Assembly (NCBI GenBank): GCA_902764575.1
Contig: CACWWI010000002.1
Span: 1 to 33,923, forward strand
Length of the DNA stretch: 33,923 nt
Reading direction: 5' to 3'
Origin: an uncultured Coriobacteriaceae bacterium
GTDB lineage: Bacteria; Actinomycetota; Coriobacteriia; Coriobacteriales; Eggerthellaceae
In this document: positions 6,061 through 21,932 of the stretch, piece after piece
Numbering within the stretch: position 1 is the first letter of the stretch
Layout of the letters: each line of letters starts with the position of its first letter
The notes under the pieces: model-generated
Told to the model about the DNA's origin: nothing
The model's input: the letters and a program-made list of their open reading frames with translations, nothing else
The model's database searches: none
Program-made: the position numbers and the translations under genes

Positions 6061-6063
6061 GAA

Positions 6064-6366
6064 ATGCTTTCTGTTAGCAGCACCGTAAACGGAGACGTCA
6101 ACGTAGTGAAGCTCGTGGGGCGGCTCGACGTGAAGGCCGCGAGGGATGCCGAGGAGGTCTTCGCCGAGGCGTCCTCCAAAGCGAAGAACGTCGTCCTCGA
6201 CCTATCCGAGCTCGACTACATCGCCAGCGCCGGCCTGCGCGCGCTGAAGCGTCTGCGCGGCGACGTCAACGCAAACGGTGGCACCCTGGTGATCAGGAAC
6301 GTCCAGGAGGACGTTATGGAGGTTTTCGAAATGACCGGTTTCGCGGCTATGCTCACGTTCGAGTAA
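6064..6366 (+). CDS. STAS-domain anti-sigma factor antagonist
   Basis: This 100-residue single-domain STAS protein is of RsbV/SpoIIAA type. The phosphorylation loop DYIASAGLRAL is present, with Ser55 as the probable phospho-acceptor. In the known partner-switch scheme the unphosphorylated form binds the RsbW-like kinase and frees its client, and the SpoIIE phosphatase keeps it unphosphorylated. It begins three bases after the phosphatase stop behind a GAGGAGGAA ribosome site and is followed 25 bases later by the kinase-like gene, so all three are one operon. Sequence and length are ordinary for the family. Confidence 0.92.
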   Translation: MLSVSSTVNGDVNVVKLVGRLDVKAARDAEEVFAEASSKAKNVVLDLSELDYIASAGLRALKRLRGDVNANGGTLVIRNVQEDVMEVFEMTGFAAMLTFE

Positions 6367-6391
6367 CCGCACGAGGGAGAGGATCCCTGCT

Positions 6392-6799
6392 ATGAGGAGC
6401 ATCACGATTCCCGCCACCGACGAAGATCCGGAGCCCATCGTCGAATTCGTGGGAGAAGAGCTCGCAAAATTCGATTGCCCGCAAAAAGCGCTCTATCAGA
6501 TCGAGGTCGCCATCGAGGAAATCCTCGTGAACATCGTCAGCTATGCCGGGCTGAGCGACGCCGACGGCGTCGAGGTCCGATGCGAAGTCCTCGACGACCC
6601 GCTACGCGTGGTCGTGCAGTTCCTCGACGGGGGCGTTCCGTTCGACCCCTTGGCGAAAGCCGACCCCGACATCACGCCCGAAGCCATCATGGAGCGCGAA
6701 GGGGGCCTCGGCATTTTCATGGTGAAGAAGATGATGGACGACGTGTCCTACGTCTACGAGAACGGCAAGAACACGCTTACGATCCTGAAGCGCTTATAG
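6392..6799 (+). CDS. RsbW-like anti-sigma factor / serine kinase (HATPase)
   Basis: This 135-residue GHKL-fold ATPase is of RsbW/SpoIIAB type. The N box is IEEILVNIVSYA, the G1 region is FLDGGVPFDPLAKAD, and the G2 region is EGGLGIFMVKKMMDDV. These bind Mg-ATP and would phosphorylate the upstream STAS protein on Ser55. Family members otherwise hold a sigma factor or another client inactive. No sigma factor gene is adjacent in this window, so the client is unknown; it could be encoded elsewhere or might not be a sigma factor. The next gene downstream is the first export cassette, after a gap with its own candidate promoter. Confidence 0.9.
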   Translation: MRSITIPATDEDPEPIVEFVGEELAKFDCPQKALYQIEVAIEEILVNIVSYAGLSDADGVEVRCEVLDDPLRVVVQFLDGGVPFDPLAKADPDITPEAIMEREGGLGIFMVKKMMDDVSYVYENGKNTLTILKRL

Positions 6800-6905: not shown

Positions 6906-7322
6906 ATGGGCGGCGACGGCGAACAGCTGCAGGACACCCGTAGGATATCCTCGCCCGAACAACTCAACGACTACCTGAAGGTGACGAGCCCGAAAATCTG
7001 GGTGCTCCTTTCTGCAGTCATCCTGCTCGTCGCCGGACTACTGCTCTGGAGCAGCTTCACGACCATCGAGAGCTACGCCACGGGCACGGCGCAGGCCGTC
7101 GGTGGCGAGCTCGTCGTCACATTCGACGATCCCGAGAAGGCGAGCAAAGTGCAGCCCGGCATGGAGATGGAAGTCGGTGACGTGGAAACCGAGGTCCTGG
7201 CCGTCGGGACGAACGAGAACGGCGACCTGATTGCATCCGCACACGCCCACATCCCCGACGGCTCGTACAAGGTTCGCGTGGGATACAAAGCCACGCAGGT
7301 CATCTCGATGCTGCTCAACTGA
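6906..7322 (+). CDS. Short NHLM-type membrane-fusion-like protein (HlyD stub), cassette 1
   Basis: This 138-residue protein has a cytoplasmic lead with SSPEQLNDYLKVTSPKIWVLL, the usual opening of NHLM bacteriocin-system secretion proteins. One membrane helix (about 31-50) and a small outside beta domain of about 85 residues follow. Typical NHLM secretion proteins are HlyD-like and roughly twice as long, with a coiled-coil hairpin; that hairpin is absent here. The start at 6906 follows GGAAAGGGG. A paralogue opens cassette 2 at 12305. It likely docks on the ABC proteins encoded 18 bases downstream. In a bacterium without an outer membrane a long periplasmic tube is not needed, which may explain the shortness. 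The role is inferred from context and the N-terminal signature. Confidence 0.7.
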   Translation: MGGDGEQLQDTRRISSPEQLNDYLKVTSPKIWVLLSAVILLVAGLLLWSSFTTIESYATGTAQAVGGELVVTFDDPEKASKVQPGMEMEVGDVETEVLAVGTNENGDLIASAHAHIPDGSYKVRVGYKATQVISMLLN

Positions 7323-7340
7323 CGGGTGGTGGCGTAAACG

Positions 7341-9506
7341 TTGGCGAACCATCCGATAGAGAAAGGCGTGGCCAGGGTTCCCCAGGTCATGCAGATGGAG
7401 TCGCTCGAATGCGGCGCGGCGGCGCTCGCCATGATCCTGGCATACTATGGCAAGTGGATGCCGCTCGAGCAGGTGCGCGTCGACTGCGGCGTGTCACGCG
7501 ACGGCGCAAGCATCGAGAACATCGCCAGGGCAGCCCGCAGCTACGGCCTCAGCGTCGAGGGTTTCCAGCGCGGCATCGACGCGCTGCGCGACCAGGGCCC
7601 GTACCCCTGCATCGTCACCTATGGCGCAGGCTATGTCGTACTCTGCGGCTTCAAGGGCGACCGCGTCTACGTGAACGACCCCGCAAAGGGCTCGCGCAAG
7701 ATCACGACCGAGGACTTCGCCCGTTCCTACGGCGGCATCTGCCTGACCTTCGCCCCGACGGACGACTTCGTTCCCGGCGGAAAGCGCAAGAGCACGGTCG
7801 AGTTCGCCCGCCACCGCCTGCGGGGAGCGGGCGTTGCCGTCGCATTCGTCGCCCTCACCACGCTCGTCGGCTACCTGCTCGAGATGCTCACGCCCGCGTT
7901 CACGCGCTTCTTCATGGACCATCTGCTTACGGGCGAGAACTCCGAGCTGCTCATGCCGTTCATCGCCCTGCTCGCCACCGTCGCCGTGTTGCAGGTGATC
8001 GTGGTAGCCGTGAAATCCATCTACTCACTCCGGATTAACGGCAAGATGGCCATCATCGGATCTTCCACGTTCATGTGGCATGTGCTGCGCATGCCCATGG
8101 TGTTCTTCTCGCAGCGCAAGGCCGGCGACATCCAACGCCGCAAGAACACGAACGCGGTCATCGCCGAAACGCTCGTGAACACGTTCACCCCGCTCGCGCT
8201 CAACATCGTCATGATCGTGTTCTACCTCGTGGTCATGATCCGCCTCTCGCCGCTGCTCACCTTGGTCGGCATTGCCGCCATCGTCATTAACACGCTGCTC
8301 GCGCGTTACATTTCCCACAAGCGCGTGAACATCACCCGCGTGCAGATGCGAGATGCGGGCCAGCTCGAGTCGTCCACCGTCTCGGGCATCCAGATGATCG
8401 AGACCATCAAGGCGGCGGGCGCCGAGAACGGCTACTTCGCAAAATGGGCGGGTTACCAGGCGTCGGTGAACACGGCCACCACGCGCTTCGCCAACCTGAA
8501 CCTGTACCTCGGCATGGTGCCCAACTTCCTGACGAGCCTCGCCAACTACACCGTGCTGGTCCTCGGCGTGTTCCTTGCCATGCAGGGGCAGTTCTCGCTC
8601 GGTATGGTCATGGGATTCCAAGGTTACGTCTCGCTGCTCATGAACCCCGCCATGACCACGGTCAAGGCGGGGCAGACGCTGCAGGAGATGCGCACGCAGA
8701 TGGAGCGCGTCGAAGACGTGATGCAGTACCCCGTCGACGCGAGCTACCGCGACGAACCGCTCAGCGACGAGGCCGATTACGACAAGTTGTACGGCAAGGT
8801 GGAGCTGAAGAACGTGACGTTCGGCTACGCGCGCCTGGGAGACCCGGTCGTAGAGGATTTCTCGATGACGGTCGAGCCAGGTGCGAGCGTGGCGTTCGTC
8901 GGCGCGTCGGGCTGCGGCAAGTCCACGCTCTCGAAGCTGATCGCCGGCCTGTACCAGCCGTGGAGCGGCGAGATCCTGTTCGACGGGAAGCCGGCATCGG
9001 AAATAGACCGCAGCGTGTTCACGGGCTCTGTGGCCGTAGTGGACCAGGACATCATCCTGTTCGAGGACACCATCGCCAACAACATCAGCATGTGGGACGA
9101 ATCCATCGAGGACTTCGAGATCATCCTGGCGGCCCGCGATGCGCAGATCCATGACGACATCATGGCGCGCGAGGGCGGCTACGCCAGCAAGATCGCCGAA
9201 GGCGGCCGCGACCTATCGGGCGGCCAGCGCCAGCGCCTCGAAATCGCCCGCGTGCTCGCCGCCGACCCGAGCATCATCATCATGGACGAGGCGACGAGCG
9301 CGCTCGACGCTAAAACCGAGCATGAGGTGGTGCGCGCCGTGAAGGACCGAGGGGTCACCTGCATCATCATCGCGCACAGGCTCTCCACCATCCGCGATTG
9401 CGACGAGATCATAGTGCTCGACCACGGCAAAGTCGTCGAGCGCGGAACGCACGAAGAGCTGTACGAGGCGGGCGGCGTGTACGCCGACCTGGTATCCAAC
9501 GACTAG
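7341..9506 (+). CDS. NHLP-type C39 peptidase/permease/ATPase exporter with degenerate peptidase, cassette 1
   Basis: This 721-residue protein has the NHLP peptidase-ABC architecture. A C39 domain covers residues 1-135, an ABC exporter membrane domain covers about 155-430, and an ATPase domain covers about 480-715. The ATPase has Walker A VGASGCGKST (about 521), signature LSGGQRQR and Walker B IIIMDEATSALD. In the C39 domain the nucleophile Cys24 and oxyanion Gln18 are present, and so is Asp113. The histidine expected in the 'HFVVL' strand is missing (AGYVVL; Gly97), and the only His in the domain is His4. The peptidase is therefore probably inactive and may only bind leaders. The start is a TTG with GGTGG upstream; a GTG at 7368 is an alternative. 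The paralogue at 12830 keeps the full triad. Confidence 0.88.
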   Translation: MANHPIEKGVARVPQVMQMESLECGAAALAMILAYYGKWMPLEQVRVDCGVSRDGASIENIARAARSYGLSVEGFQRGIDALRDQGPYPCIVTYGAGYVVLCGFKGDRVYVNDPAKGSRKITTEDFARSYGGICLTFAPTDDFVPGGKRKSTVEFARHRLRGAGVAVAFVALTTLVGYLLEMLTPAFTRFFMDHLLTGENSELLMPFIALLATVAVLQVIVVAVKSIYSLRINGKMAIIGSSTFMWHVLRMPMVFFSQRKAGDIQRRKNTNAVIAETLVNTFTPLALNIVMIVFYLVVMIRLSPLLTLVGIAAIVINTLLARYISHKRVNITRVQMRDAGQLESSTVSGIQMIETIKAAGAENGYFAKWAGYQASVNTATTRFANLNLYLGMVPNFLTSLANYTVLVLGVFLAMQGQFSLGMVMGFQGYVSLLMNPAMTTVKAGQTLQEMRTQMERVEDVMQYPVDASYRDEPLSDEADYDKLYGKVELKNVTFGYARLGDPVVEDFSMTVEPGASVAFVGASGCGKSTLSKLIAGLYQPWSGEILFDGKPASEIDRSVFTGSVAVVDQDIILFEDTIANNISMWDESIEDFEIILAARDAQIHDDIMAREGGYASKIAEGGRDLSGGQRQRLEIARVLAADPSIIIMDEATSALDAKTEHEVVRAVKDRGVTCIIIAHRLSTIRDCDEIIVLDHGKVVERGTHEELYEAGGVYADLVSND

Positions 9507-9520
9507 GGGGAGGTGAGGAC

Positions 9521-11701
9521 ATGGGCATTTTCGACGATCAGATCCGCCAGCGCAAGCATGGCGACCAAGAGCTGTTCGAGGATTCGATCCTGCGCATGGC
9601 CTCCGCCGTCGTGGGCCAGGAGGTCGCCGGCTCGATGGCCACCGAGCGCATCGTGACGAAGGAAGCCGTCGACGACATCCTGAAGTACTACCGCATCAAC
9701 CCCGTCGACATCCCCCACCACGTTACCGACCCCGACGAGCAGCTGGAGTACGCCCTGCGCCCCCACGGCATCATGCACCGCATGGTGGCGCTGCAGAAGG
9801 GATGGTACAAGGACGCGTTCGGGCCGATGATCGCCTACCGCAAATCCGACGGGGCGCCGGTGCCGATGTTCCCGAAACCCTACCTGGGATACTGGTTCCG
9901 CGACGAGAACGGCCGCAAGACGACGGTGAACTCCCGCAATGAGGGCGATTTCGCACCCGAGGCCCGCTGCTTCTACCGTCCGCTGCCGCTGGGCAAGGTC
10001 GGCGTGCGCGACCTGTTCGGCTACATGCGCCAATGCCTGAACGTCACCGACCTCGCCCTGCTCGTCGGCATTACCCTGCTCGTGACGCTCGTCGGCATGC
10101 TCCTGCCGCCCATCGCGAAGATCCTTACCGGCTATGTGGCAAACACGGGCAGCTATGCAGTCCTGTGGTCCACGGCGGCATTCCTGCTGTGCACCGCACT
10201 GGCGCATCAGATGATGACGGCCTCTCGCGAGATAGCCGTCAACCGCATCCGCACGAAGACCTCGACCCAGCTATCCTCCGCATTCATGATGCGCATCCTC
10301 AGCTTGCCGGCAACGTTCTTCCGCGATTTCAGCGCCGGCGAGCTGGCGAGCCGCAGCATGGCCGCCGACGCCCTCGTCGGGCTCGTCGTGTCGAACGTGC
10401 TCGCCCTCGGTACAACAGCCCTGTTCTCGCTGCTGTACGTGGCGCAGATCGGGGCCTTCGCCCCGGCCCTCATGTGGCCGGCCCTTGCGATCATCGCCGC
10501 CACCATCGCGGTGATGCTGGCCACCTCGATCGTTCAGATGCGCGTCACGCGCCGGCAGATGGAGTACGCCGCCAAAGAGAACGGCAAGAGCTTCTCCCTC
10601 ATCTACGGCGTGCAGAAAGTCAAGCTTGCCGGCGCCGAGAAACGTGCTTTCGCCCAGTGGGCACGCGCCTACACGAAGAGCGCCGAACTGCAGTACAACC
10701 CCCCGTTCTTCCTGAAGATGAGCAGCGCCCTGAATTCGGCCATCTCGATGGCGGGCGCCATCGTTCTGTACTACCTCGCCGCCACGTCGGGCGTGACGCC
10801 CTCGGACTACATCGCGTTCTTCGCGGCTTACGGCATGGTCATGGGCGCGTTCGCGTCGCTCGCCGGCGTAGTGCAGGCAACCGCGCAGATCAAGCCCAAC
10901 CTCGATATGATGCGCCCCATACTCCAGGCCAAGCCCGAGGTGGCCGAAAACAAGGAGATCCTCACGAACCTGGGCGGCCGCATCGAACTTTCGGGCGTGC
11001 GGTTCCGTTACGGCGAGGGCATGCCCTACGTCATCGACGGCATGGACCTGACGATCCGTGCGGGCGAGTACGTGGCCATCGTGGGCAAGTCGGGTTGCGG
11101 CAAGTCGACGCTCGTGCGCTTGCTACTCGGCTTCGAAACGCCGGAGAAGGGCGCCATCTACTACGATGGCAAGGACCTGACGAGCATCGACCTGCGCTCG
11201 TTGCGCCGTCGCATCGGGGCGGTCACGCAAGACGGCAGCCTGTTCCAGGAAGACATCTACTCGAACATCACGATCTCGGCGCCGGGCCTGACGGAGGAGG
11301 ACGCCTGGGAGGCAGCCGAGATTGCCGGCATTGCCGATGACATCCGCGCCATGCCGATGGGCATGAAGACCATGATCTCAGAAGGCTCGGGCGGCATTTC
11401 GGGCGGGCAGAAGCAGCGCCTCATGATCGCCCGCGCCGTGGCTCCCAAGCCGCGCGTGCTCATCTTCGACGAGGCCACGAGCGCGCTGGACAACCGCACC
11501 CAGAAGCAGGTGTCCAAATCGCTCGACGCGCTGAACTGCACGCGCATCGTTATCGCGCATCGGTTGTCGACCATCAAGAACTGCGACCGCATCCTGTATC
11601 TGGAGGACGGCCACATCGTCGAGGACGGCACCTACGACGAGCTCATCGAGAAAGGCGGTCGTTTCGCCGAGCTCGTGGAACGCCAGCGCCTCGACGCATG
11701 A
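9521..11701 (+). CDS. NHLP-type ABC permease/ATPase without peptidase, cassette 1
   Basis: This 726-residue ABC exporter half is the second ABC component of NHLP-type systems. The first 160 residues are a soluble domain with the family pattern in which a short helix bundle is followed by a beta segment (GWYKDAFGPMIAYRKSDGAP) and no C39 residues. Membrane helices run from about 180 to 450. The ATPase has Walker A VGKSGCGKST (about 523), signature ISGGQKQR and Walker B VLIFDEATSALD. The ATG at 9521 is chosen over an open upstream frame because GGGGGAGGTGAGG precedes it and the upstream part overlaps the previous gene in another frame. It lies 14 bases after the peptidase-ABC gene, with which it presumably forms a heterodimer. 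Its end is 7 bases from the convergent gene's stop. Confidence 0.88.
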   Translation: MGIFDDQIRQRKHGDQELFEDSILRMASAVVGQEVAGSMATERIVTKEAVDDILKYYRINPVDIPHHVTDPDEQLEYALRPHGIMHRMVALQKGWYKDAFGPMIAYRKSDGAPVPMFPKPYLGYWFRDENGRKTTVNSRNEGDFAPEARCFYRPLPLGKVGVRDLFGYMRQCLNVTDLALLVGITLLVTLVGMLLPPIAKILTGYVANTGSYAVLWSTAAFLLCTALAHQMMTASREIAVNRIRTKTSTQLSSAFMMRILSLPATFFRDFSAGELASRSMAADALVGLVVSNVLALGTTALFSLLYVAQIGAFAPALMWPALAIIAATIAVMLATSIVQMRVTRRQMEYAAKENGKSFSLIYGVQKVKLAGAEKRAFAQWARAYTKSAELQYNPPFFLKMSSALNSAISMAGAIVLYYLAATSGVTPSDYIAFFAAYGMVMGAFASLAGVVQATAQIKPNLDMMRPILQAKPEVAENKEILTNLGGRIELSGVRFRYGEGMPYVIDGMDLTIRAGEYVAIVGKSGCGKSTLVRLLLGFETPEKGAIYYDGKDLTSIDLRSLRRRIGAVTQDGSLFQEDIYSNITISAPGLTEEDAWEAAEIAGIADDIRAMPMGMKTMISEGSGGISGGQKQRLMIARAVAPKPRVLIFDEATSALDNRTQKQVSKSLDALNCTRIVIAHRLSTIKNCDRILYLEDGHIVEDGTYDELIEKGGRFAELVERQRLDA

Positions 11702-11708
11702 GCGGGCG

Positions 11709-12221
11709 CTACTCGTCGTCCGTAGGCACTTCCACCGTTTTCTTCTGCTCCTGCGTGAAGCACAGCACGAAATCGACGGGCATCCCAGCCCAAACGCTGG
11801 TGACGAGCGAGTGCGCGTAGATGTCGGTGGCCCTCACGATGTTGCCCTCGCCCAGCTCGATCTGCACCGGGACGCTCTTCAACGGAAGCTTCTTGTCGAT
11901 GTCGTGCAGCTCGTCGAACAGCTTCTCGACCGTCAAGACCCTGTCGCCATGGCTGACGGTAAACGTGACGCAATTATCATCGCTCAGATAGACCTTGCCC
12001 ACGTTCCAGGTTGCCGTTCCGGGAATCCACTCGCGCATCTCGTTGAACGCGTTGCGCGCGATCTTCACGGGCGAAGCATCGTTCATTCGCTTGAGGGATT
12101 TCAACATCAGAGCGTAATCGAGCTCCGGCAATGCCTCGGGATGAGCCTTCTTGTAATCACTAACCTTCTCGCGAAGGATCTTCTCGCCACGATCGGTGCC
12201 CTGCTGCTTGTCGTCTGACAT
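11709..12221 (-). CDS. Hypothetical protein between the two export cassettes
   Basis: This 170-residue soluble, acidic protein is one I do not recognise. The N-terminal 60 residues are helical and charged (GEKILREKVSDYKKAHPEAL). The rest looks beta-rich, and the tail is polar and ends in acidic residues. There is no signal peptide, membrane segment or double-glycine motif, and only two cysteines, so it does not look like a leader peptide. An AGAAAGG site precedes the ATG at 12221 and a perfect TATAAT lies upstream. It is transcribed towards cassette 1 and divergently from cassette 2, sharing an 83-base promoter region with the latter. A regulator, chaperone or immunity role for the export locus is possible but is inferred from position only. 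Confidence 0.7.
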   Translation of the reverse strand: MSDDKQQGTDRGEKILREKVSDYKKAHPEALPELDYALMLKSLKRMNDASPVKIARNAFNEMREWIPGTATWNVGKVYLSDDNCVTFTVSHGDRVLTVEKLFDELHDIDKKLPLKSVPVQIELGEGNIVRATDIYAHSLVTSVWAGMPVDFVLCFTQEQKKTVEVPTDDE

Positions 12222-12304
12222 GAGCGGCCTTTCTCTTCATTGGAGCTACGGAATCCATTATATGTTATCGAGCATTGATATATTATGGTAGCACTCAGGA
12301 AAGG
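12222..12304. promoter_or_regulatory. Divergent promoter region between the hypothetical gene and export cassette 2
   Basis: This is one of the few AT-rich patches in the window. On the minus strand a perfect TATAAT occupies 12257-12262, giving a leader of about 28 bases to the ATG at 12221. On the plus strand a TATATTAT stretch at 12279-12286 would start transcription about 12 bases before the ATG at 12305. The two -10 elements are about 20 bases apart, so the polymerase sites overlap and the two transcripts may compete. -35 elements are weak on both strands. Confidence 0.5.
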
Positions 12305-12829
12305 ATGGCTAAAACTCGCATGGCCGAAATGGAATCGAGCATATTCAACAGGAAAGCAACCGAGAAGCTCAAGAGCCCTGACGACCTGGACAAGTACGTC
12401 CGTGTAACCAACCCGAGCGTATGGATGGTGCTCGCAGCCTGCATTGCCTTCCTCATCGGCCTGCTAGCCTGGGGCACGTTCGGCACGGTGAGCACGAACG
12501 TGACGGCGCCGGCAACCTGCGTCAACGGGAAGGCCATGTGCTTCCTGCCCACCGATGACGGGTCGAAGGTCCATGTGGGCGACACCGTCACCATCGAAGG
12601 GGACCAGTTCACGGTGGCCTCGATATCGAACGTGCCCATTTCCCACGAGGAGGCGTCGGATATCCTCGAGAGCGACTACCTGGTGAGCGCGGTCCTCAAG
12701 AACGACTGGGCCTACCTCGTCACGCTCGAGGGCGACACGTCCGATTTACCCGACGGGGTGCCACTCACCTCGAGCATCACAATCGCACGCACCGCTCCTA
12801 TCACCCTTCTCTTCGGAAGAAAATCGTAA
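12305..12829 (+). CDS. Short NHLM-type membrane-fusion-like protein (HlyD stub), cassette 2
   Basis: This 174-residue paralogue of the protein at 6906 has the signature KSPDDLDKYVRVTNPSVWMV before a single membrane helix (about 40-58). An outside beta domain of about 115 residues follows. The outside part contains a barrel-sandwich-like stretch (VHVGDTVTIEGDQFTVASIS), but no coiled-coil hairpin, so it is far shorter than canonical HlyD-type adaptors. I chose ATG 12305 because AGGAAAGG abuts it; the spacing is tight, and ATG 12320 is an alternative that loses five residues. The stop at 12827-12829 is immediately followed by the ATG of the peptidase-ABC gene with no gap, which indicates translational coupling within cassette 2. 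Confidence 0.7.
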   Translation: MAKTRMAEMESSIFNRKATEKLKSPDDLDKYVRVTNPSVWMVLAACIAFLIGLLAWGTFGTVSTNVTAPATCVNGKAMCFLPTDDGSKVHVGDTVTIEGDQFTVASISNVPISHEEASDILESDYLVSAVLKNDWAYLVTLEGDTSDLPDGVPLTSSITIARTAPITLLFGRKS

Positions 12830-14992
12830 ATGGCCCGGGGCGTCGCAAAAGTTCCTCAAGTCATGCAGATGGAGGCGCTGGAGTGCGGCGCCGCCTGCCT
12901 GACGATGATATTGGCCTATTACGGCAGATGGGTGCCGCTCGAGCAAGTAAGAGCCGACTGCGGCGTCTCGCGCGACGGATCGAAGGCTTCGAACATCCTC
13001 AAGGCCGCACGCAGCTACGGCCTTACCGCCAAGGGCATGACGTATTCCACCAAAGCGCTGCGCAACAAGGGCAAGTTCCCCTGCATCATCTTCTGGAACT
13101 TCAACCACTTCGTGGTCCTCAGCGGGTTCAAAGGCAAGTACGCGTACATCAACGACCCCGCGCGCGGCCAGGTGAAAATTCCCATGGAGCAGTTCGAGGA
13201 CTCGTTCACGGGCATCGCGCTCGTGTTCGAACGCACCGACGCCTTCGAGGAGGGCGGGAGCAAGCCCAACACCAGCAAGTATGCGCGCAAGCGCCTGGAG
13301 GGCCTCGGGCCCGCTATCGCGTTCACAATGCTCACGGCGGCCATCACCTCGCTCGTGGCCATCTTGAGCACGTCGATGGGGCAGGTGTTCATAGACCACA
13401 TCCTCTCGAAAGAAGACCCCGATTGGCTGGCCTCGTTCACGGTGATGATGCTGATCCTGGCAACCGTCTCAGGCATCTCGTCCATCATGAACGCCGTGTT
13501 CCTCTTGCGCATACAGGGCAAGATCGCGGTCGTATCGTCGTCGCGGTTCATGCGCCACCTGCTGCACCTGCCCATCGGATTCTACGCACAACGCATGGTG
13601 GGCGACCTCCAGCAACGCCAATCTGCCAACGAAACCATCGCCTACCAGCTCATAGGCCAGCTCGCCCCCGTGCTCGTCAACGGCATCATGCTGATACTGT
13701 ACCTGGTCGTCATGGTGAACTACAGCGTGCTGCTGACGATCGTGGGCTTGCTGGCGGTCGTGGCGAACGCGCTTTTGGCGCGAAACATCTCCAAACAGCG
13801 CGTGAACATCTCGCGCGCGGGCGCCGCCAATGCCGGCAAGCTCTACGCAACCACCGTAGGCGGCATCGAGATGATCGAGACCATCAAGGCCGCTGGCGCC
13901 GAGCAGGGATATTTTAGCCGGTGGGCGGGCTACCAGGCTGCGGTGAACGAGTCGGATGCCCGCACGACGCGCCTGAACGAATACCTGGGCGCCGTTCCGC
14001 AGGCGATGACCCAGATCGCGAACATCGCCGTACTCGTGCTGGGCATATGGCTCATCGTGGAGGACCTGTTCACGCCGGGCATGCTGCTGGCGTTCACGGG
14101 CTTCCTCTCCGCGTTCATGGCGCCAGTGAACCAGATGATCCAACTCGGCCAAGCTGTCCAGGAGATGCAAACCCAGATGGAGCGCATCGAGGACGTGATG
14201 AGATATCCGGTCGACGTCCCGGAAGAGCCCGAGGAGGCTGCCGTCAACGTGGACGAGCTCGACCGCGAGAAGCTGAGCGGCCAGGTGGACCTGAACGGCG
14301 TTTCGTTCGGATACTCGCCCCTCGAGCCGCCGCTCATCGAGGACCTCGACCTCCACATCGAGTCCGGGAAATGGGTTGCCCTCGTTGGAGGATCGGGCTG
14401 CGGGAAGTCGACGATAGCCAAGATCGTTTCGGGGCTCTACACGCCTTGGACTGGCGAAGTGAAGTTCGACGGCATGCCCATCGCGGAAATCCCGCACCCC
14501 GTCTTGCGCGGGTCGCTCGCAGTCGTGGACCAGGACATCATCGCCTTCGACGACACGATTTCCGACAACATCAAGCTGTGGGACCGCTCCATCGAAGACT
14601 ACGAGGTCATTCTCGCCTGCCGTGACGCCGCCATCCACGACATCATCTCCAGCCGTGAAGGCGGCTACATGAACCGCGTCCTGCCAGGTGGCCGAAACTT
14701 CAGCGGAGGCCAGCTGCAGCGCATGGAAATCGCGCGCGTTTTGGCGCAAGACCCCACCATCATCATCTTGGACGAGGCAACGAGCGCACTCGACGCCCAG
14801 ACCGAGGCCGAAGTGGTGCGCCGCATCCGAGACCGCGGCGCCACGTGCATCGTGGTGGCGCACCGCCTTTCCACCATACGCGACTGCGACGAGATACTCG
14901 TGCTCGACGACGGCAAGGTGGTCGAACGCGGAACCCATTCCGAACTTCTCGCGGCCAATGGCGCCTATGCGGAGTTGGTGCGCAATGACTAA
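12830..14992 (+). CDS. NHLP-type C39 peptidase/permease/ATPase exporter, intact triad, cassette 2
   Basis: This 720-residue exporter should cleave a leader, typically after a Gly-Gly or similar site, and pump the cargo out. The N-terminal C39 domain keeps oxyanion Gln13, nucleophile Cys19 (EALECGAAC), His93 (NHFVVLSGF) and Asp109 (NDPARG), so it is probably active. Membrane helices run from about 155 to 430. The ATPase domain has Walker A VGGSGCGKST (about 518), signature FSGGQLQR (Phe for the usual Leu) and Walker B IIILDEATSALD. It overlaps the next ABC gene by 8 bases. It is a paralogue of the protein at 7341, and both belong to the NHLP bacteriocin export family. No leader-peptide gene is adjacent, so the cargo is unknown. 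Confidence 0.92.
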   Translation: MARGVAKVPQVMQMEALECGAACLTMILAYYGRWVPLEQVRADCGVSRDGSKASNILKAARSYGLTAKGMTYSTKALRNKGKFPCIIFWNFNHFVVLSGFKGKYAYINDPARGQVKIPMEQFEDSFTGIALVFERTDAFEEGGSKPNTSKYARKRLEGLGPAIAFTMLTAAITSLVAILSTSMGQVFIDHILSKEDPDWLASFTVMMLILATVSGISSIMNAVFLLRIQGKIAVVSSSRFMRHLLHLPIGFYAQRMVGDLQQRQSANETIAYQLIGQLAPVLVNGIMLILYLVVMVNYSVLLTIVGLLAVVANALLARNISKQRVNISRAGAANAGKLYATTVGGIEMIETIKAAGAEQGYFSRWAGYQAAVNESDARTTRLNEYLGAVPQAMTQIANIAVLVLGIWLIVEDLFTPGMLLAFTGFLSAFMAPVNQMIQLGQAVQEMQTQMERIEDVMRYPVDVPEEPEEAAVNVDELDREKLSGQVDLNGVSFGYSPLEPPLIEDLDLHIESGKWVALVGGSGCGKSTIAKIVSGLYTPWTGEVKFDGMPIAEIPHPVLRGSLAVVDQDIIAFDDTISDNIKLWDRSIEDYEVILACRDAAIHDIISSREGGYMNRVLPGGRNFSGGQLQRMEIARVLAQDPTIIILDEATSALDAQTEAEVVRRIRDRGATCIVVAHRLSTIRDCDEILVLDDGKVVERGTHSELLAANGAYAELVRND

Positions 14993-17171
14993 GTGGTTGG
15001 AATCGCAAATCGAGGCACGCACGCGTTTCGACGCGGAGCTCACCGAGCGCGCCTACGCCGAGCTTGCCGCTAGCGTATCGGACCCCGACGCCACACCGCG
15101 CGTCTCGTTCGACGATATGGAGCAAGCGGACGTCGCGGCGAAAGCCTGCCTCGCGCATATCGGCGTCGAGGCGGGTTCGGTTCCCCCGGGCATTACCGAC
15201 CCCGAGGAGCGCCTCGACTGGCTCTGCCGGCCCTCCGGCACCATGCGGCGCACCGTCCATCTCGAAGCCGGCTGGCAAAAGCAAGCGTTCGGCGCGCTGC
15301 TCGGGCAGCTCGACACCGGGGACACCGTGGCGCTGCTGCCCCGCACCCCGCGCGGGTACTACTATCTGGAACCCGGTTCGGGCCGCAAGGTTACGGTTAC
15401 GCCGAACGACGCCTGGCGCATCAAGCCGGAAGCCGTGCTGTTCTACAAGCCCCTCCCTCCCAAGCCCCTGAAGGTGACCGACCTCGTCGCGTTCGTCTTC
15501 CGCGCGTTCGACCGCAGCGACTACGGGCTCGTCATCATCGCAACACTCTTCGCAACGCTCATCGGCCTAGCCCCCGCCTGGGCAAACCAGGTGGCATTCG
15601 GCGTCGTGGCCCCTTCCGGCCAAGCGCAGCTCATCTTGCCCATCGCCGCGCTACTGTTGGGCGTTGCGATATCCGCCGCCCTCATCGGCATATGCCGCAA
15701 CTTGGTTATGGGACGCATATCCCTCAAGCTCGACCTCATCGTCGAAGCCGCAACATTCGCACGCGTCCTCGCGCTGCCCACCGCGTTCTTCAAGCAGTAC
15801 TCTTCGGGCGACCTCGCCAGCCGCGTGGCCAACATGACCATGTTCACGAAGCTGATCGCCTCGGTTGTCCTCGGCACGGCGCTCACGGCGCTGTTCTCGC
15901 TCCTCTATATCGTTCAGATCGGCTTCTTCGCCCCAGCGCTCGCCCTCCCTGCGTTCTTGATCCTCGTAGCGCAGATCGCGGTCGCCCTCATAGGGACGCG
16001 CGTCACCGCACGTTACGAGATGTCGGCGATGGAAGCCAACGCCAAACTGTCGGGCGAGGTGACGGCGCTCCTGAACGGCATCCAGAAGATCAAGCTCGCC
16101 GGTGCCGAAGACCGCGCGTTCGCGAAATGGGCCCACAGCTATTCGGCCTATGCGCGCCCCGCCTACAACCGGCCGGTGCTGGTGCGCGCGCTGCCCGCCA
16201 TTGTGGCGCTCATCGGGACCTTAGGCGTTATCCTCCTTTACTACGTCGCCGGCTCGACCGACGTGAGCATTGCGAATTACATGGCGTTCAACGCGGCCTA
16301 CGGCCAGGTTACGGTCGCCGTCATGCAACTCGCGTCCATCTCGGGGCAAGTTGCCCAGATCAACCCCATGCTCGAGATGATGGCGCCGATCATGGAGGCG
16401 ACGCCCGAAGTGGCCGAAGACAAGCCGTCGGTCGAGTCGGTTTCGGGCGGCGTGGAGATGTCCAACGTGTCGTTCCGCTACAGCGACGACACCCCCAACG
16501 TCCTGGACAACCTCTCCTTCAAGGTGAAGCCTGGCGAATACGTCGCAATCGTCGGCAAGAGCGGATGCGGCAAGTCCACCATCGTGCGCCTCTTGCTGGG
16601 ATTTGAGAAGCCCGAGCTCGGCAGCATCTTCTACGGCGGTTACGACGTGCAGAGGGTCAACCTGCGCAGCCTGCGCCAATGCATCGGCGTTGTCATGCAG
16701 GACGGCAAGCTGTTCATGGGCGACATCGCGAGCAACATCACCATATCCACGCCCTCTGCCACGCTCGACGACGCCTGGGAGGCAGCCGAGATCGCCGGGG
16801 TCGCCGACGACATCCGCAAGATGCCCATGGGCATGCAGACGCTCGTCACGGAAGGCGGGGGCGGCGTTTCCGGCGGCCAGCGCCAGCGCCTGATGATAGC
16901 CCGCGCCGTATGCGGCAAACGGCGCATCCTCATCTTCGACGAGGCCACGAGCGCGCTCGACAACATCACGCAGAAACACGTGATCGAATCCCTCGACAAG
17001 CTGAACTGCACCCGCATCGTGGTGGCCCACCGCCTGTCCACCGTGCGTCATTGCGACCGCATCCTGGTGATGGACCACGGCACCATCGCCGAAGAGGGAA
17101 CGTACGAAGAGCTTATCGAGAAGGACGGCTTGTTCGCCGAGCTCGTGAGGCGGCAACGTCTCGAGCAGTAA
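14985..17171 (+). CDS. NHLP-type ABC permease/ATPase without peptidase, cassette 2
   Basis: This 728-residue protein is the second ABC half of cassette 2 and a paralogue of the protein at 9521. The N-terminal 170 residues are soluble and lack C39 residues. The membrane region runs from about 185 to 450. The ATPase has Walker A VGKSGCGKST (about 523), signature VSGGQRQR and Walker B ILIFDEATSALD. The start at 14985 lies inside the end of the preceding gene (overlap 14985-14992) and matches the length of its paralogue. The longer open frame upstream runs antiparallel to good sense in the previous gene and is discarded. It probably pairs with the peptidase-ABC protein. The radical SAM gene follows after 42 bases with only a weak GC hairpin between, so the operon likely continues. 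Confidence 0.9.
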   Translation: MTKWLESQIEARTRFDAELTERAYAELAASVSDPDATPRVSFDDMEQADVAAKACLAHIGVEAGSVPPGITDPEERLDWLCRPSGTMRRTVHLEAGWQKQAFGALLGQLDTGDTVALLPRTPRGYYYLEPGSGRKVTVTPNDAWRIKPEAVLFYKPLPPKPLKVTDLVAFVFRAFDRSDYGLVIIATLFATLIGLAPAWANQVAFGVVAPSGQAQLILPIAALLLGVAISAALIGICRNLVMGRISLKLDLIVEAATFARVLALPTAFFKQYSSGDLASRVANMTMFTKLIASVVLGTALTALFSLLYIVQIGFFAPALALPAFLILVAQIAVALIGTRVTARYEMSAMEANAKLSGEVTALLNGIQKIKLAGAEDRAFAKWAHSYSAYARPAYNRPVLVRALPAIVALIGTLGVILLYYVAGSTDVSIANYMAFNAAYGQVTVAVMQLASISGQVAQINPMLEMMAPIMEATPEVAEDKPSVESVSGGVEMSNVSFRYSDDTPNVLDNLSFKVKPGEYVAIVGKSGCGKSTIVRLLLGFEKPELGSIFYGGYDVQRVNLRSLRQCIGVVMQDGKLFMGDIASNITISTPSATLDDAWEAAEIAGVADDIRKMPMGMQTLVTEGGGGVSGGQRQRLMIARAVCGKRRILIFDEATSALDNITQKHVIESLDKLNCTRIVVAHRLSTVRHCDRILVMDHGTIAEEGTYEELIEKDGLFAELVRRQRLEQ

Positions 17172-17213: not shown

Positions 17214-18605
17214 ATGAACCCCGAGAAGCGCATACGGGAATACGCTGAGCTCAACTTCAACGAGGTGTACCACTGCACCCTGAACCCCGACGGGCCGGGC
17301 GTCGTGCGCATCTTCCTTGTTCCTCCCTTGTTGGGAGACTCCGACGATGTCGGAGCAAGCGTCGCCATCATCAACGGCCAAGACGTCATCCCCGTCAACA
17401 CGTCGTGGAGCATCCTCCTCATCGAGTTCATCCGGGCAGTCAACCGCTACGACGGCAGGGCCGTTTCCGACCAGGACGTCGAGGACATCCAGAAAGCCAC
17501 TTGCAGGGCCGTGCGCAGGGTGTATCCCTTCATAAGCAAGAAGCGCCTGCGCCGCGACATCTACACCATCATGAAAACGTTCAAGCAGGTGGCGCGCGGC
17601 GAGGCCGTAGACGAGCCGATACAGTACGTGCCGCTCGGCGAGTACGCCCCCTTCATGCGCGCCCCGCACCGAATGGACCTCATGGTGAGCGCCATGGCGA
17701 CGGACGGCCGCTGGAACTGCAACCAGAAGTGCGTGCACTGCTATGCAGCCGGCCAGGAGCAAGCGGAGGAGCCCGAGCTTTCCACCGAGGAGTGGAAGGA
17801 GATCATCGACAAGTGCCGCAAGGCGGGCGTCACGCAGATCACGTTCACGGGCGGCGAGCCCACCATGCGCGACGACCTGTTCGAGCTCATCGAGCATGGG
17901 CGCTGGTTCGTCACGCGCCTGAACACGAACGGCATCAAGCTCACGCGCGAGTACTGCGAGCGCCTGCACGCAGCGTCCTTGGACAGCGTGCAGATAACCT
18001 TCTACTCGCACAACGCGGTAGTGCACGACCAGCTCGTCGGCGCCCACCGCTATGCAGACACCGTCGCGGGAATCGAGAACGCGCTGGCCGCGGGTCTCAA
18101 CATGAGCGTCAACACGCCCCTGTGCACGGCCAACCGCAACTACGTGGAAACGCTCGAGTTCCTGCACAACCTGGGCGTCACCTACGTGTCGTGCTCCGGG
18201 CTCATCACCACGGGCAACGCGGCCACAGCCGCGTCCGAGCAGATGCAGCTGAGCCAGGAGGCACTCGAGCAGATCCTGCGGGAGGCCGTGGCCTACTGCC
18301 ATGCGCATGACATGGAGATCAGCTTCACGTCGCCTGGCTGGGTGGAGCCCGGCTTCTGCAGCGGGCTCGGCATAAGCGACCCGGCCTGCGGCGCGTGCCT
18401 CAGCAACATGGCCGTGACGCCAGGGGGGCATGTCGTCCCCTGCCAGAGCTGGCTGAGCGGGTGCGTCCTCGGCGACATGCGCACCGACGGCTGGAAGAGC
18501 ATCTGGTACGGCGAGCAATGCAAGGAGATCCGCGAATCGTCCGCGGCGATGGACGGCAGCTGCCCGCTTCGCCGCCACGCGAACGCCGAGGAGGTGGGAG
18601 CATGA
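17214..18605 (+). CDS. Radical SAM/SPASM protein, likely peptide or protein maturase
   Basis: This 463-residue enzyme has a radical SAM core from about residue 155. The cluster motif CNQKCVHC (Cys169, Cys173, Cys176) and the TGGEPTMRDDL SAM-binding signature are clear. The C terminus is SPASM-like, with seven cysteines (382, 392, 395, 410, 417, 436, 450) including ACGAC and TPGGHVVPC, enough for one or two auxiliary Fe-S clusters. The first 150 residues are an extra domain; residues 65-130 resemble a PqqD-like leader-recognition fold, which is only a visual impression. SPASM enzymes commonly form thioether or C-C links in peptides or oxidise protein residues. The stop overlaps the start of the Cys-Ala-tail gene (ATGA), which makes that protein the obvious candidate substrate. 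The ribosome site is GAGGGAAAGG. Confidence 0.9.
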   Translation: MNPEKRIREYAELNFNEVYHCTLNPDGPGVVRIFLVPPLLGDSDDVGASVAIINGQDVIPVNTSWSILLIEFIRAVNRYDGRAVSDQDVEDIQKATCRAVRRVYPFISKKRLRRDIYTIMKTFKQVARGEAVDEPIQYVPLGEYAPFMRAPHRMDLMVSAMATDGRWNCNQKCVHCYAAGQEQAEEPELSTEEWKEIIDKCRKAGVTQITFTGGEPTMRDDLFELIEHGRWFVTRLNTNGIKLTREYCERLHAASLDSVQITFYSHNAVVHDQLVGAHRYADTVAGIENALAAGLNMSVNTPLCTANRNYVETLEFLHNLGVTYVSCSGLITTGNAATAASEQMQLSQEALEQILREAVAYCHAHDMEISFTSPGWVEPGFCSGLGISDPACGACLSNMAVTPGGHVVPCQSWLSGCVLGDMRTDGWKSIWYGEQCKEIRESSAAMDGSCPLRRHANAEEVGA

Positions 18606-19840
18606 GGGCACGCATCGCATCGGTTCTGCTGGCGGTAGTCCTTGCCCTGGCCCTGCCCCTCTCAAGCGCATGGGCCGCCAAGGGAGACCTGGACGAGATC
18701 GTGAACTACCAGGTAAAGGTGGACGTCAACGAAGACGCTACGCTGCACATGGTGTACCACATCGAGTGGAAGGTGCTCGACTCTACATCGGAGGGCCCGC
18801 TTTCCTGGGTGCTCATCGGCATCCCCAACAAGCACTACGTGTCGGTAAAGGGCCTGAGCAAAACGATCAAGTCCATCAAGTACGACAAGTCGCAGGGTGA
18901 CTGCGTGCGCATCGACCTCGACAAGAAATACTACGCCGGCGAAGTGGTGAGCTTCGATTTCGAGCTCGTGCAAGACTACATGTACCAGGTGGACAGGGAT
19001 AACAAGGGCGAGACCGTCTACGAGTTCACCCCCGGCTGGTTCGACGAGGCGGCGGTCGACAACCTCGAGATACGCTGGAACGCCGACAAGGTCGAGCGCA
19101 TCGCCCCCGCAGCCCAGCAGGACAAGGGCTACTACACCTGGCGCACTGCGCTGAAGAAGAAGGGGCGCTACACGGTGACGGTCGGCTATGCCAACGACGC
19201 CTTCGCCTTCGACATCGACAAGAACATCGAGCAGTGGAACAAGTCGGGCGGCACCAGCTCGTCGAGCAGCGACCACGACTGGGTGTACGGGCTGGTAGGA
19301 CTAGCTGCAGTCGGCCTCATGATGTGGGGGTCCTACCAGTTCCTCAAGGTGATCGCCAACGCGTTCCTGCGCCTGTTCGAAATGGGGTCCGGCTTCACGA
19401 CGGGCAAGAAGATCACGCGCACGAAAGTGGTCTACTACCCCATTTGCCAAGGGTGCGGCGCCCCGCGTCCCGAAGGCAGGGACACCTGCGACTACTGCGG
19501 GCGCAGCTTCATCCAGAGCGAGGAGGTTATCACCGAGAAGGACATCCCCGCTCAGGAGAGGGCCATCCGGGGTAAGAGCACCGAGGGCGAGTACGCCTAC
19601 AGCAGCGAGCCGAACACGTTCCTGCGCGTGCACGTGGTTCCCGTTCCCATATCGACGGGCAGCCGGCATCGCAGCAGCGGGTCGTCGAGCCACTCGTCGT
19701 GCGCATGCGCGTGCGCGTGCGGTTGCGCCTGCGCCTGCGCGTGCGCCGGGGGCGGCAGGGCAGGCTGCACGACGAAGGACTTCTACAACACCAACCTGAA
19801 GCTGAGCCAGCTCGAAGAGGGAGGGGGCGCCAAAACATGA
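18602..19840 (+). CDS. Membrane-anchored protein with zinc ribbon and alternating Cys-Ala C-terminal tail
   Basis: This protein has 412 residues. A signal peptide (1-25, cleavage after AWA) precedes an outside beta-rich domain (26-222) reminiscent of DUF2207/TPM-type membrane proteins. A membrane helix (about 228-250) leads to a cytoplasmic part with a zinc ribbon (Cys282, 285, 296, 299). A Ser/His/Arg-rich linker follows, then the run CACACACGCACACACA (residues 367-382) and, after GGGRAG, Cys389 and a 23-residue tail with KDFYNTNLKL. Eight cysteines alternate with small residues, which fits neither a zinc finger nor a disulfide-rich fold. With N-out/C-in topology the tail faces the cytoplasm, where the radical SAM enzyme encoded just upstream could reach it. 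The start is set by the ATGA overlap and GGAGG. Function is unknown; substrate status is inferred. Confidence 0.8.
   Translation: MRARIASVLLAVVLALALPLSSAWAAKGDLDEIVNYQVKVDVNEDATLHMVYHIEWKVLDSTSEGPLSWVLIGIPNKHYVSVKGLSKTIKSIKYDKSQGDCVRIDLDKKYYAGEVVSFDFELVQDYMYQVDRDNKGETVYEFTPGWFDEAAVDNLEIRWNADKVERIAPAAQQDKGYYTWRTALKKKGRYTVTVGYANDAFAFDIDKNIEQWNKSGGTSSSSSDHDWVYGLVGLAAVGLMMWGSYQFLKVIANAFLRLFEMGSGFTTGKKITRTKVVYYPICQGCGAPRPEGRDTCDYCGRSFIQSEEVITEKDIPAQERAIRGKSTEGEYAYSSEPNTFLRVHVVPVPISTGSRHRSSGSSSHSSCACACACGCACACACAGGGRAGCTTKDFYNTNLKLSQLEEGGGAKT
19700..19747 (+). repeat. Eight in-frame TGC-GCN hexamer units encoding the Cys-Ala run
   Basis: Eight consecutive six-base units each encode Cys followed by Ala (Gly in the fourth). 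The second codon varies: gca, gcg, gcg, ggt, gcc, gcc, gcg, gcc. The amino acid pattern is more uniform than the DNA, which argues for selection on the protein and against very recent slippage. Confidence 0.85.
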
Positions 19841-20871
19841 AGCAATTTACCCATGAAGATGGATACCAGGTTCTCCTCCTGCAAGCGGCGGACGACGGAC
19901 GCGGGCCCATCCTGTTCGGCGACAGCGTCGAGCGGGCCCGCACGGAAGCGCTGCCGTTCCTCCTGGGAGAGGAATTCCCCGACGTCTACTTCGAGTTCCC
20001 GCTCATCGGCGCACCGTTCCTCGACGTCACCTTGCTCTACTCGAAGCTCGACCCCGGCACGCGCGTCGATTCCCCCGCCGCCGGGGAGCATGGGGGGCTG
20101 CTCGATTGGTTTGCCAGCGTTTGCGACGAGCACGAAAGATTGTCCTGCGGTTTCGAGCTCGACACCAAGGAAGCGGTGCTTCCCGAAGCCGCCGTGCACT
20201 TCCAGCCGCGGCAGTCTACCGAACTCGTGCGCCCCTTCTTCGAGGCGATCGGGGAACCGGAACGCGCAGACCTCTACCTGAAAACCGCGGAGAAGATGGC
20301 GCCCGACTGGTCGCTTTCGTTCTTCGGCCTGTTTCGCGGACGCCCCAATTCGCCCCTGCGCGTGTGCGGCTATATAAGCACCAGCGACCATGAGAAGTGC
20401 GCGAAAGACCCTCGCCGTATCACGAGCCTGTTCGACGCGGTGGGTTTTACCGCCTACGACGACGCGATGCTCCAGCAGATATCGGCGCTCATGGCGACTA
20501 AGCCCAAGGGGGCCGACTTCCAACTCGACGTGTACCCAGACGGAAGCGTGAGCCCCGTGTTCGCTGTCGACGTGCAGTTCGGCATCGAGCAGCCCGAGGC
20601 AGTCCGCGCGGCGTTCACCAACGGCCTCGCCTCGCGCGTCATGGGGCTCCTGGAGGGCTGGGGCGCGGCCGATAGCCGCTGGAAACTCGGCGGCGACATC
20701 GCGTTCGCCCGCAGCCTTCCCGTAGAGCTCGACGGAGGAGACACGGGCCGCTATGCGTTCACGCTCATGCCCCAATGGACGAAGGCCCGCTGGATCGACG
20801 GCGTGCTCCAGCCCGCCAAGCTCTACCTTATCGCCAAAGCCGGAATGCTCAGCGAATCGGGCAAGAAATGA
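19837..20871 (+). CDS. Unrecognised 344-residue cytoplasmic protein in the radical SAM operon
   Basis: This is a soluble 344-residue protein with no signal peptide, membrane segment or motif that I can name. It appears to have two alpha/beta halves. The C-terminal half has regular strands such as FQLDVYPDGSVSPVFAVDV and RYAFTLMPQWTKARW, suggesting repeated beta units. Three cysteines are scattered (CDEHERLSCG, RVCGY) and do not form a cluster motif. The ATG overlaps the previous stop as ATGA, with GAGGGAGG upstream, and its own stop overlaps the next start in the same way. Tight coupling to the radical SAM gene and the Cys-Ala protein suggests it acts with them, perhaps as a second modifying enzyme or binding partner. 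That is inference from position only. Confidence 0.75.
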   Translation: MKQFTHEDGYQVLLLQAADDGRGPILFGDSVERARTEALPFLLGEEFPDVYFEFPLIGAPFLDVTLLYSKLDPGTRVDSPAAGEHGGLLDWFASVCDEHERLSCGFELDTKEAVLPEAAVHFQPRQSTELVRPFFEAIGEPERADLYLKTAEKMAPDWSLSFFGLFRGRPNSPLRVCGYISTSDHEKCAKDPRRITSLFDAVGFTAYDDAMLQQISALMATKPKGADFQLDVYPDGSVSPVFAVDVQFGIEQPEAVRAAFTNGLASRVMGLLEGWGAADSRWKLGGDIAFARSLPVELDGGDTGRYAFTLMPQWTKARWIDGVLQPAKLYLIAKAGMLSESGKK

Positions 20872-21932
20872 CGTCCCAGAGCACCGAGAACAAGCCGGCC
20901 GAGCCCACGATCGGCATTCGCCTGTGCCAAGCGTACTTCGTCCTGGCCATGCTCGTCGCGCTCGTGTTCGGGTTCATCTGCGCGCCCTCGCAGTTCGACT
21001 ACGACATCAGCATGATCCGCGTGCTGCTGCTCATGGCGGGCGGGTCGGTGACGCTGTGGCTCATATCGCAGCGCGCCAACAGCGCCCGTGCGGTAGGGTC
21101 GCTCACGGCGCTCATATGCGCGCTGCTGTCCGCCCTCGACCACGCGGCGTTCGGGGCGTACGAGACGCTCGCCGGTTACGTGGGGCAAACCGCCACCACG
21201 GGCCTCATGATCGTGGAGTACATCGGGGCCATCGCGGTCGCCATCTACCTGACGTTTTCGCCGCAGGCCAAGCGCGTGCTGTGCAAACCGCCCGACATGG
21301 AACCGGGGTCCCCCGACCACCACGGATGGGACAAGCCGCTCGGCGAGCGCATTCGCAAGCTCGAGTTCTGGCGCGACCTCCTGATCTACTTCGTCGTGTT
21401 CTCGCTCCTGGGCCATTGGGCCGAGATGCTCTTCTGCCAGCTCATCAGGGCGGGCGTGTTCATGGGCGGGTACGACCCCAGTAACGCGATGCTCTGGGAC
21501 CAGTGGCTATTCCCGTTCACGGCGGAAGGCGCGGCCCTCGTGGCCATCGTGTTCATCCTGCAACCGGCCGCGCAATGGCTGCTCAAGAAGACGGGCAACC
21601 GCATACTGCCGGCGTTGCTGCTGAGCTTCCTGCTCAACATGCTCATATGCACCGGCATCGACTTCACGACCGGCATGGTCGCAAACCAGGACTACCAGCT
21701 ATGGGACTACCGCGACATGCCGTTCAACTTCATGGGGCAGGTGTGCCTGCAGAACTCGCTGGTCTACAGCATCGCCGCCACGCTCATCGTGTGGGTGGTC
21801 TACCCGTTCATGGACTCGGTGCTGCACCGCGCGCCCCGGGGCGTCACGAACGCCATCGCTGCAGGGCTCATCGGCATGTACCTGTTCCTGGCCATGCTCT
21901 ACTTCGTCGACATCACGGCGCTCCGGCAGTAG
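20868..21932 (+). CDS. Polytopic membrane protein, CmpB-like putative ABC transporter permease family
   Basis: This 354-residue integral membrane protein has about eight hydrophobic segments. The first half, to about residue 140, carries four. A cytoplasmic loop near 140-165 follows. The second half matches the 'putative ABC transporter permease' (PF06541, CmpB-like) pattern, notably LLGHWAEMLFCQLI, LWDYRDMPFNFMGQVCL and the closing helices. Despite the family name, no ATPase partner is established for most members. The ATG at 20868 overlaps the previous stop as ATGA and has no strong ribosome site of its own, so it depends on coupling. It is the last gene of the operon and converges with the lipoprotein gene 18 bases away. 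It may be the membrane partner of the Cys-Ala-tail protein, which is speculation. Confidence 0.75.
   Translation: MTSQSTENKPAEPTIGIRLCQAYFVLAMLVALVFGFICAPSQFDYDISMIRVLLLMAGGSVTLWLISQRANSARAVGSLTALICALLSALDHAAFGAYETLAGYVGQTATTGLMIVEYIGAIAVAIYLTFSPQAKRVLCKPPDMEPGSPDHHGWDKPLGERIRKLEFWRDLLIYFVVFSLLGHWAEMLFCQLIRAGVFMGGYDPSNAMLWDQWLFPFTAEGAALVAIVFILQPAAQWLLKKTGNRILPALLLSFLLNMLICTGIDFTTGMVANQDYQLWDYRDMPFNFMGQVCLQNSLVYSIAATLIVWVVYPFMDSVLHRAPRGVTNAIAAGLIGMYLFLAMLYFVDITALRQ

Follow-up and report, generated by a model that had tools for sequence, protein, structure and literature searches.

We analysed a 33,923-nucleotide stretch of DNA from an uncultured Coriobacteriaceae bacterium (contig CACWWI010000002.1, positions 1 to 33,923; the window). 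Positions 17214-21932 of the window carry four open reading frames (ORFs) linked by three ATGA overlaps at 18602, 19837 and 20868. The first two, a radical S-adenosylmethionine (SAM) enzyme and a membrane protein ending in a Cys-Ala tail (the carrier), are the subject of this analysis. The features of the locus are:

17214..18605, plus strand: radical SAM enzyme (gene 1), 463 aa, assigned with Pfam, AlphaFold and Foldseek
18602..19840, plus strand: carrier (gene 2), Cys-Ala-tailed membrane protein, 412 aa
19697..19770, plus strand: Cys-Ala tail CACACACGCACACACAGGGRAGCT, presumed substrate, within the carrier gene
19837..20871, plus strand: 344-aa protein (gene 3), its start overlapping the carrier stop; outside the conserved pair
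20868..21932, plus strand: CmpB-like (PF06541) membrane protein (gene 4), 354 aa

A first-pass annotation of this DNA had described four ORFs joined by three 4-base stop/start overlaps, and all were found exactly where it placed them. It had also read gene 2 as a signal-peptide-bearing membrane protein with a Cys-Ala tail, and the signal peptide, an internal transmembrane (TM) helix and the tail SSCACACACGCACACACAGGGRAGCTTKDFY were all seen. Gene 4 matched CmpB in Pfam (2.8e-18), in line with its CmpB-like label.

CACAGGGRAGC was found a single time in the window and in none of 100 shuffles. An exact DNA pattern for CAGGGRAGC was run over the genome collection and gave at least 119 stretches. 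Among the scan matches listed, at least 84 were genuine tails, and the remainder were chance matches, chiefly in GC-rich genomes. Gammaproteobacterial and actinobacterial matches such as L010 were rejected as short or GC-rich chance, and a second Cys-Ala match in the window's own genome (C18) was set aside because it is no tail of this kind. An Eggerthellaceae locus (L005:803-2872) encodes a MOSC-like/cysteine desulfurase ORF with an internal CACACACACACAGAG, unrelated to the carrier family. The tail-bearing genomes were mainly Lachnospiraceae, Oscillospiraceae, Gemmiger, other Clostridia, Anaeroplasma/Acholeplasmatales and Eggerthellaceae, and among sequenced strains the motif is present in, for example, Gemmiger formicilis ATCC 27749 and Hungatella hathewayi WAL-18680. 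The tail consensus is [CA]n GGGRAGC[ST]xKDFYxTxLK, located at the C-terminus. In 104 distinct tails, Ala occupied 547 of 553 spacer positions, and the uninterrupted Cys-Ala run was 5-6 units long in 83. Synonymous codons varied among these tail genes, whose GC content ranged from 28% to 69%, which shows selection at the level of the protein; an origin of the run by chance or as a DNA repeat was rejected on the same grounds. The tail was the best-conserved part of the carrier, with a mean column identity of 0.81, whereas the ectodomain reached 0.54 and the TM region 0.24.

Starting from the tail, we compiled 88 loci with CxCAGGGRAGC, comprising the 84 genuine scan matches, three loci of the window's family and one chance match. 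Among the matches listed, a gene 1 homologue was present at 69 of the 88 loci, nearly always immediately upstream and on the same strand. When whole genomes were checked for the remaining 18 genuine tail loci, the enzyme was found in 14; it adjoins the tail by coordinates in 12 of these, and apparent contig breaks were seen in the other two (L060, L087). Three of the 18 tail genes were cut off by contig ends. The only exception to an enzyme beside the tail where the contig continues, again among the matches listed, was L045 (3631-4446), a 5'-deleted carrier with the tail still in place, in a genome that lacks the enzyme. The missing signal peptide and domain start, together with the absence of the enzyme, mark L045 as a decayed remnant, and it was not counted against the pairing. 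The first-pass annotation had named carriers regularly found without the radical SAM gene as the observation that would count against it; this one remnant was all that turned up.

Searches that started from the enzyme gave the same picture. In the window's family the enzyme was found in 4 of 121 genomes, the identical four that have the carrier. In the family of genome G122, the identical 11 of 103 genomes were matched whether the query was the enzyme, the tail pattern or the carrier without its tail. In the corresponding class the enzyme was found in 11 of 391 genomes, always either next to a tail or where a contig ends. A Cys-Ala tail was visible with 22 of the 25 distinct enzyme genes, and the other three lay at contig ends (G073, G436, G475); contig ends aside, no enzyme turned up in these searches without a carrier bearing the tail. 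The apparently tail-less L160 and L154 were likewise explained by contig ends. L162 of genome G559 had looked like an enzyme without a carrier, and was rejected as such because transposase genes of an insertion sequence part the two (L164:9163-13453). The G559 tail, CACACACACACAVGGRVGCSERGYQVLHWL with the divergent end VGGRVGCSERGYQVLHWL, was found without a motif search. Enzyme and carrier distances were correlated (Mantel r 0.89, 0/2000 permutations), indicating that the two co-diverge. The counts ignore the relatedness of the genomes. Collectively, as far as gene content can tell, these comparisons show that the pairing of the enzyme with a Cys-Ala-tailed carrier is obligate, and the co-occurrence check that had been suggested for the first-pass annotation comes out in its favour in both search directions.

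Gene 1 matched Pfam Radical_SAM (8.6e-22) and SPASM PF13186 (30.5 bits, above the cut-off of 21.5), and it has the radical SAM core motif CX3CX2C (C169, C173, C176). Its C-terminal domain is Twitch-like, with cysteines C392, C395, C410, C436 and C450. The SPASM consensus is CX9-15GX4C...CX2CX5CX3C...C, of which the enzyme keeps the first half (C395-X9-G405-X4-C410). The second half, CX2CX5CX3C, is absent, and only C436 (45/52) and C450 (52/52) follow C410; C392, C410 and C450 were invariant among the enzyme homologues compared. Judged by its cysteines, the C-terminal end reads as Twitch-like with one auxiliary cluster rather than as a full SPASM motif, so that the initial description of gene 1 as a SPASM radical SAM gene is borne out by the Pfam matches but has to be amended for this end. 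SkfB has a Twitch-like arrangement with one auxiliary cluster (PMC6231123). In the AlphaFold model of the enzyme (pLDDT 93), the N-terminal domain (~residues 19-127) is built of beta strands followed by three helices, which is consistent with a domain like the recognition element (RRE) of ribosomally synthesised and post-translationally modified peptides (RiPPs). Pfam PqqD had no match in the enzyme, and the RRE assignment is by fold alone. Foldseek with the enzyme model returned SkfB first (2.4e-15), then SuiB and CteB, all of them RRE-bearing peptide maturases, and SkfB was also the top hit of a sequence search of the PDB. By predicted fold, the enzyme thus combines the RRE, radical SAM core and SPASM/Twitch domain that characterise sactipeptide-type maturases. 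It passed no curated NCBIfam equivalog, the best being NirJ2 (113 bits, cut-off 500).

The carrier consists of a signal peptide, an extracellular beta domain (31-197, DUF2207-like), a TM helix (226-262) and, on the cytoplasmic side, a zinc-ribbon domain (267-349), the disordered Cys-Ala tail and a C-terminal helix (399-411). AlphaFold gave a pLDDT below 50 over most of residues 358-393, which span the tail. A single N-terminal hydrophobic segment with a single internal TM segment was found in 54 of 71 carriers. The charge was more positive after the TM segment in 60 of 65 carriers, and by this positive-inside bias the tail would lie on the same side of the membrane as the enzyme, in the cytoplasm. 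Every carrier long enough to compare belongs to one homologous membrane-protein family beyond the tail, and no NCBIfam or Pfam family was matched above cut-off. For DUF2207 (PF09972) the window's carrier scored 16.7 bits against a gathering cut-off of 24.4, and other carriers scored at most 18.2. In this the carriers differ from DUF2207 proteins, although they have, as predicted, the same topology of a large extracellular N-domain, a TM segment and a cytoplasmic C-terminus, as in SMU.243 of S. mutans (PMC10457818). SMU.243 has a Gly/Ser-rich stretch roughly where the carrier has its Cys-Ala tail, and this DUF2207 protein affects stress tolerance and biofilm formation (PMC10457818). The ectodomain model (residues 31-197) also resembles ribophorin I/OST1 and the N-domain of M1 aminopeptidase. 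Two or three carriers accompany one enzyme at L014, L030/L035, L102 and L157.

The closely spaced Cys residues, and a zinc-ribbon-like CxxC..CxxC upstream of the tail in 39 of 71 carriers, would also suit an unmodified tail that binds a metal or Fe-S cluster as a buffer or sensor, with the enzyme as a partner and no modifier. We consider this improbable. Chelation would need no Ala, yet Ala is nearly invariant between the Cys residues; the obligate pairing with an RRE-bearing peptide-maturase fold would be left unexplained; and no metal transporter or regulator was conserved nearby across 65 loci.

No genes other than those for the enzyme and the carrier recurred widely together in the same 65 loci. 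Judged by this conserved neighbourhood, the functional unit is two genes, and the four-gene unit of the first-pass annotation is not supported, since neither gene 3 nor gene 4 goes along with the pair across genomes. Gene 3 had no match in Pfam or NCBIfam; it is one of a multi-copy family that occurs in 16 of the 121 genomes of the window's family, mostly without the enzyme-carrier pair. CmpB-like genes lie near the pair, on the opposite strand, in the Eggerthellaceae locus L079 and are not conserved elsewhere. With that instance aside, neither gene was beside the pair in relatives, and both were rejected as members of the system.

NHLP peptidase and ATP-binding cassette (ABC) transporter genes lie upstream and stop 42 bp short of the enzyme gene, a position that raises the question of a RiPP pathway with an outsized precursor, in which the modified tail would be released and exported by these C39-peptidase transporters; the GGG of the tail might serve the C39 peptidase. 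In contrast, no NHLP transporter was found beside the pair in L149, L151, L153, L051 or L079, same-family relatives included. The transporters were therefore rejected as partners, being specific to the window among the loci examined. No exporter, peptidase or immunity gene was conserved across the 65 loci, and the tail forms the C-terminal end of a membrane protein that has a signal peptide. We regard such a pathway as very improbable. The lack of a conserved peptidase or exporter instead suggests that the modified product probably stays on the membrane protein and that this is not a standard RiPP pathway, as had been proposed from the outset; in place of the short leader-core precursor of sactipeptide-type RiPPs, the candidate substrate is a 412-aa membrane protein.

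We propose that the two genes form a protein-modification system in which the enzyme modifies the Cys-Ala tail of the carrier, most likely by thioether stapling, and the tail stays attached; we put the probability of this reading at about 0.6. That the tail is the substrate of the enzyme is very probable. The enzyme would dock to the portion of the membrane-anchored carrier that lies in the cytoplasm, probably through its RRE-like domain, and 5'-deoxyadenosyl radical chemistry with one auxiliary Fe-S cluster would modify the Cys-Ala run repeatedly. The likeliest products would be intramolecular thioether (sactionine-type) links that join Cys sulfur to carbons of Ala or of residues close by, given that a sactisynthase is the nearest fold and that chelation hardly accounts for the strict Ala. 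By this analogy, thioether chemistry stands at roughly even odds. The stapled tail would remain on the membrane protein, where it may provide a rigid redox- or metal-active cytoplasmic end; the carrier itself would serve as a sensor or scaffold in the envelope, with a topology like that of DUF2207 proteins. This role for the carrier is tentative.

The tail may instead be modified in another way, by epimerisation, desaturation, oxidation of Cys to an aldehyde, C-C links or links to the GGGRAGC/zinc-ribbon region. Enzymes with such activities are among the Foldseek matches: anSME oxidises Cys, SuiB forms C-C links and EpeE is an epimerase. These other chemistries seem unlikely as a group, as the sactisynthase SkfB is the best fold match, CteB also ranks high, Cys is the best-conserved residue, and the motif of anSME, C-x-[PA]-x-R, is not seen in the tail. 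For repeated single-residue chemistry there is a precedent in TvgB (PMC9062424).

Several points weigh against thioether stapling of the tail by the enzyme. The enzyme is only ~20% identical to SkfB across the aligned fold, so the chemistry of SkfB is not confidently transferable. The consensus and conservation of the tail were partly fixed by the search motif, though the tails found from the enzyme side agree. The KDFY-L end, a putative docking site, is missing from some carriers. A metal site is another conceivable reading of the strict Cys run.

Like the sactisynthases SkfB, CteB and AlbA, the enzyme has an RRE-like N-domain, a radical SAM core, a Twitch/SPASM-type end and a Cys-rich target encoded next door. 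Unlike in those systems, the candidate target is the C-terminal tail of a ~300-450-aa membrane protein, and no leader peptide, peptidase, exporter or immunity gene is conserved. QhpD is a radical SAM enzyme that places thioether links in a protein subunit, not in a secreted peptide; there the links are of the Cys-Asp/Glu kind and the target is a soluble subunit of a dehydrogenase, unlike the tail described here. TvgB and TvgA likewise combine a radical SAM enzyme with a repeated core motif on which the modification is installed repeatedly, but the TVGG repeats of TvgA lie in a small peptide encoded with dioxygenase and transporter/peptidase genes (PMC9062424). The survey in that study sought small peptides and would thus overlook the carrier tail; the part covered lists Asp-Cys repeats (cluster 59) and no Cys-Ala repeats (PMC9062424). 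More generally, maturase targets are usually sought as small nearby precursors, and a substrate at the end of a ~400-residue membrane protein would be missed.

Literature searches on the motif, on Cys-Ala repeats and on DUF2207 with radical SAM returned nothing relevant, which is weak evidence since subscription papers fell mostly outside the search. The enzyme would be a variant of the known radical SAM peptide maturases acting in a new setting, and the pair, carried by many gut bacteria, points to an apparently undescribed way of modifying a membrane-protein tail and not of making a secreted peptide. If true, radical SAM cross-linking would reach beyond secreted peptides and also decorate envelope proteins of gut bacteria permanently, and the repeated Cys-Ala run offers a simple, testable substrate. 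Put more broadly, and at somewhat less than even odds, gut Clostridia, Bacilli and Coriobacteriia would share a widespread, as yet undescribed type of post-translational modification: a radical SAM system with no leader and no export would polycyclise the cytoplasmic Cys-Ala tail of an envelope protein, turning it into a stapled redox- or metal-active module of a membrane receptor.

Further upstream, the window carries two tandem NHLP-type export cassettes (6906-17171). Each encodes a short HlyD-like N-terminal protein (138 and 184 aa), a TIGR03796 peptidase-ABC protein and a TIGR03797-like ABC protein; no NHLP precursor was obvious in the ORF lists of the window. Between the cassettes, on the minus strand, lies a 170-aa ORF with no Pfam match (11709-12221). 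Upstream of the cassettes (3586-6799), a gene for a SpoIIE-type phosphatase with a 5TMR-LYT domain is followed by an RsbW-like kinase gene, and the two possibly form a partner-switch regulator.

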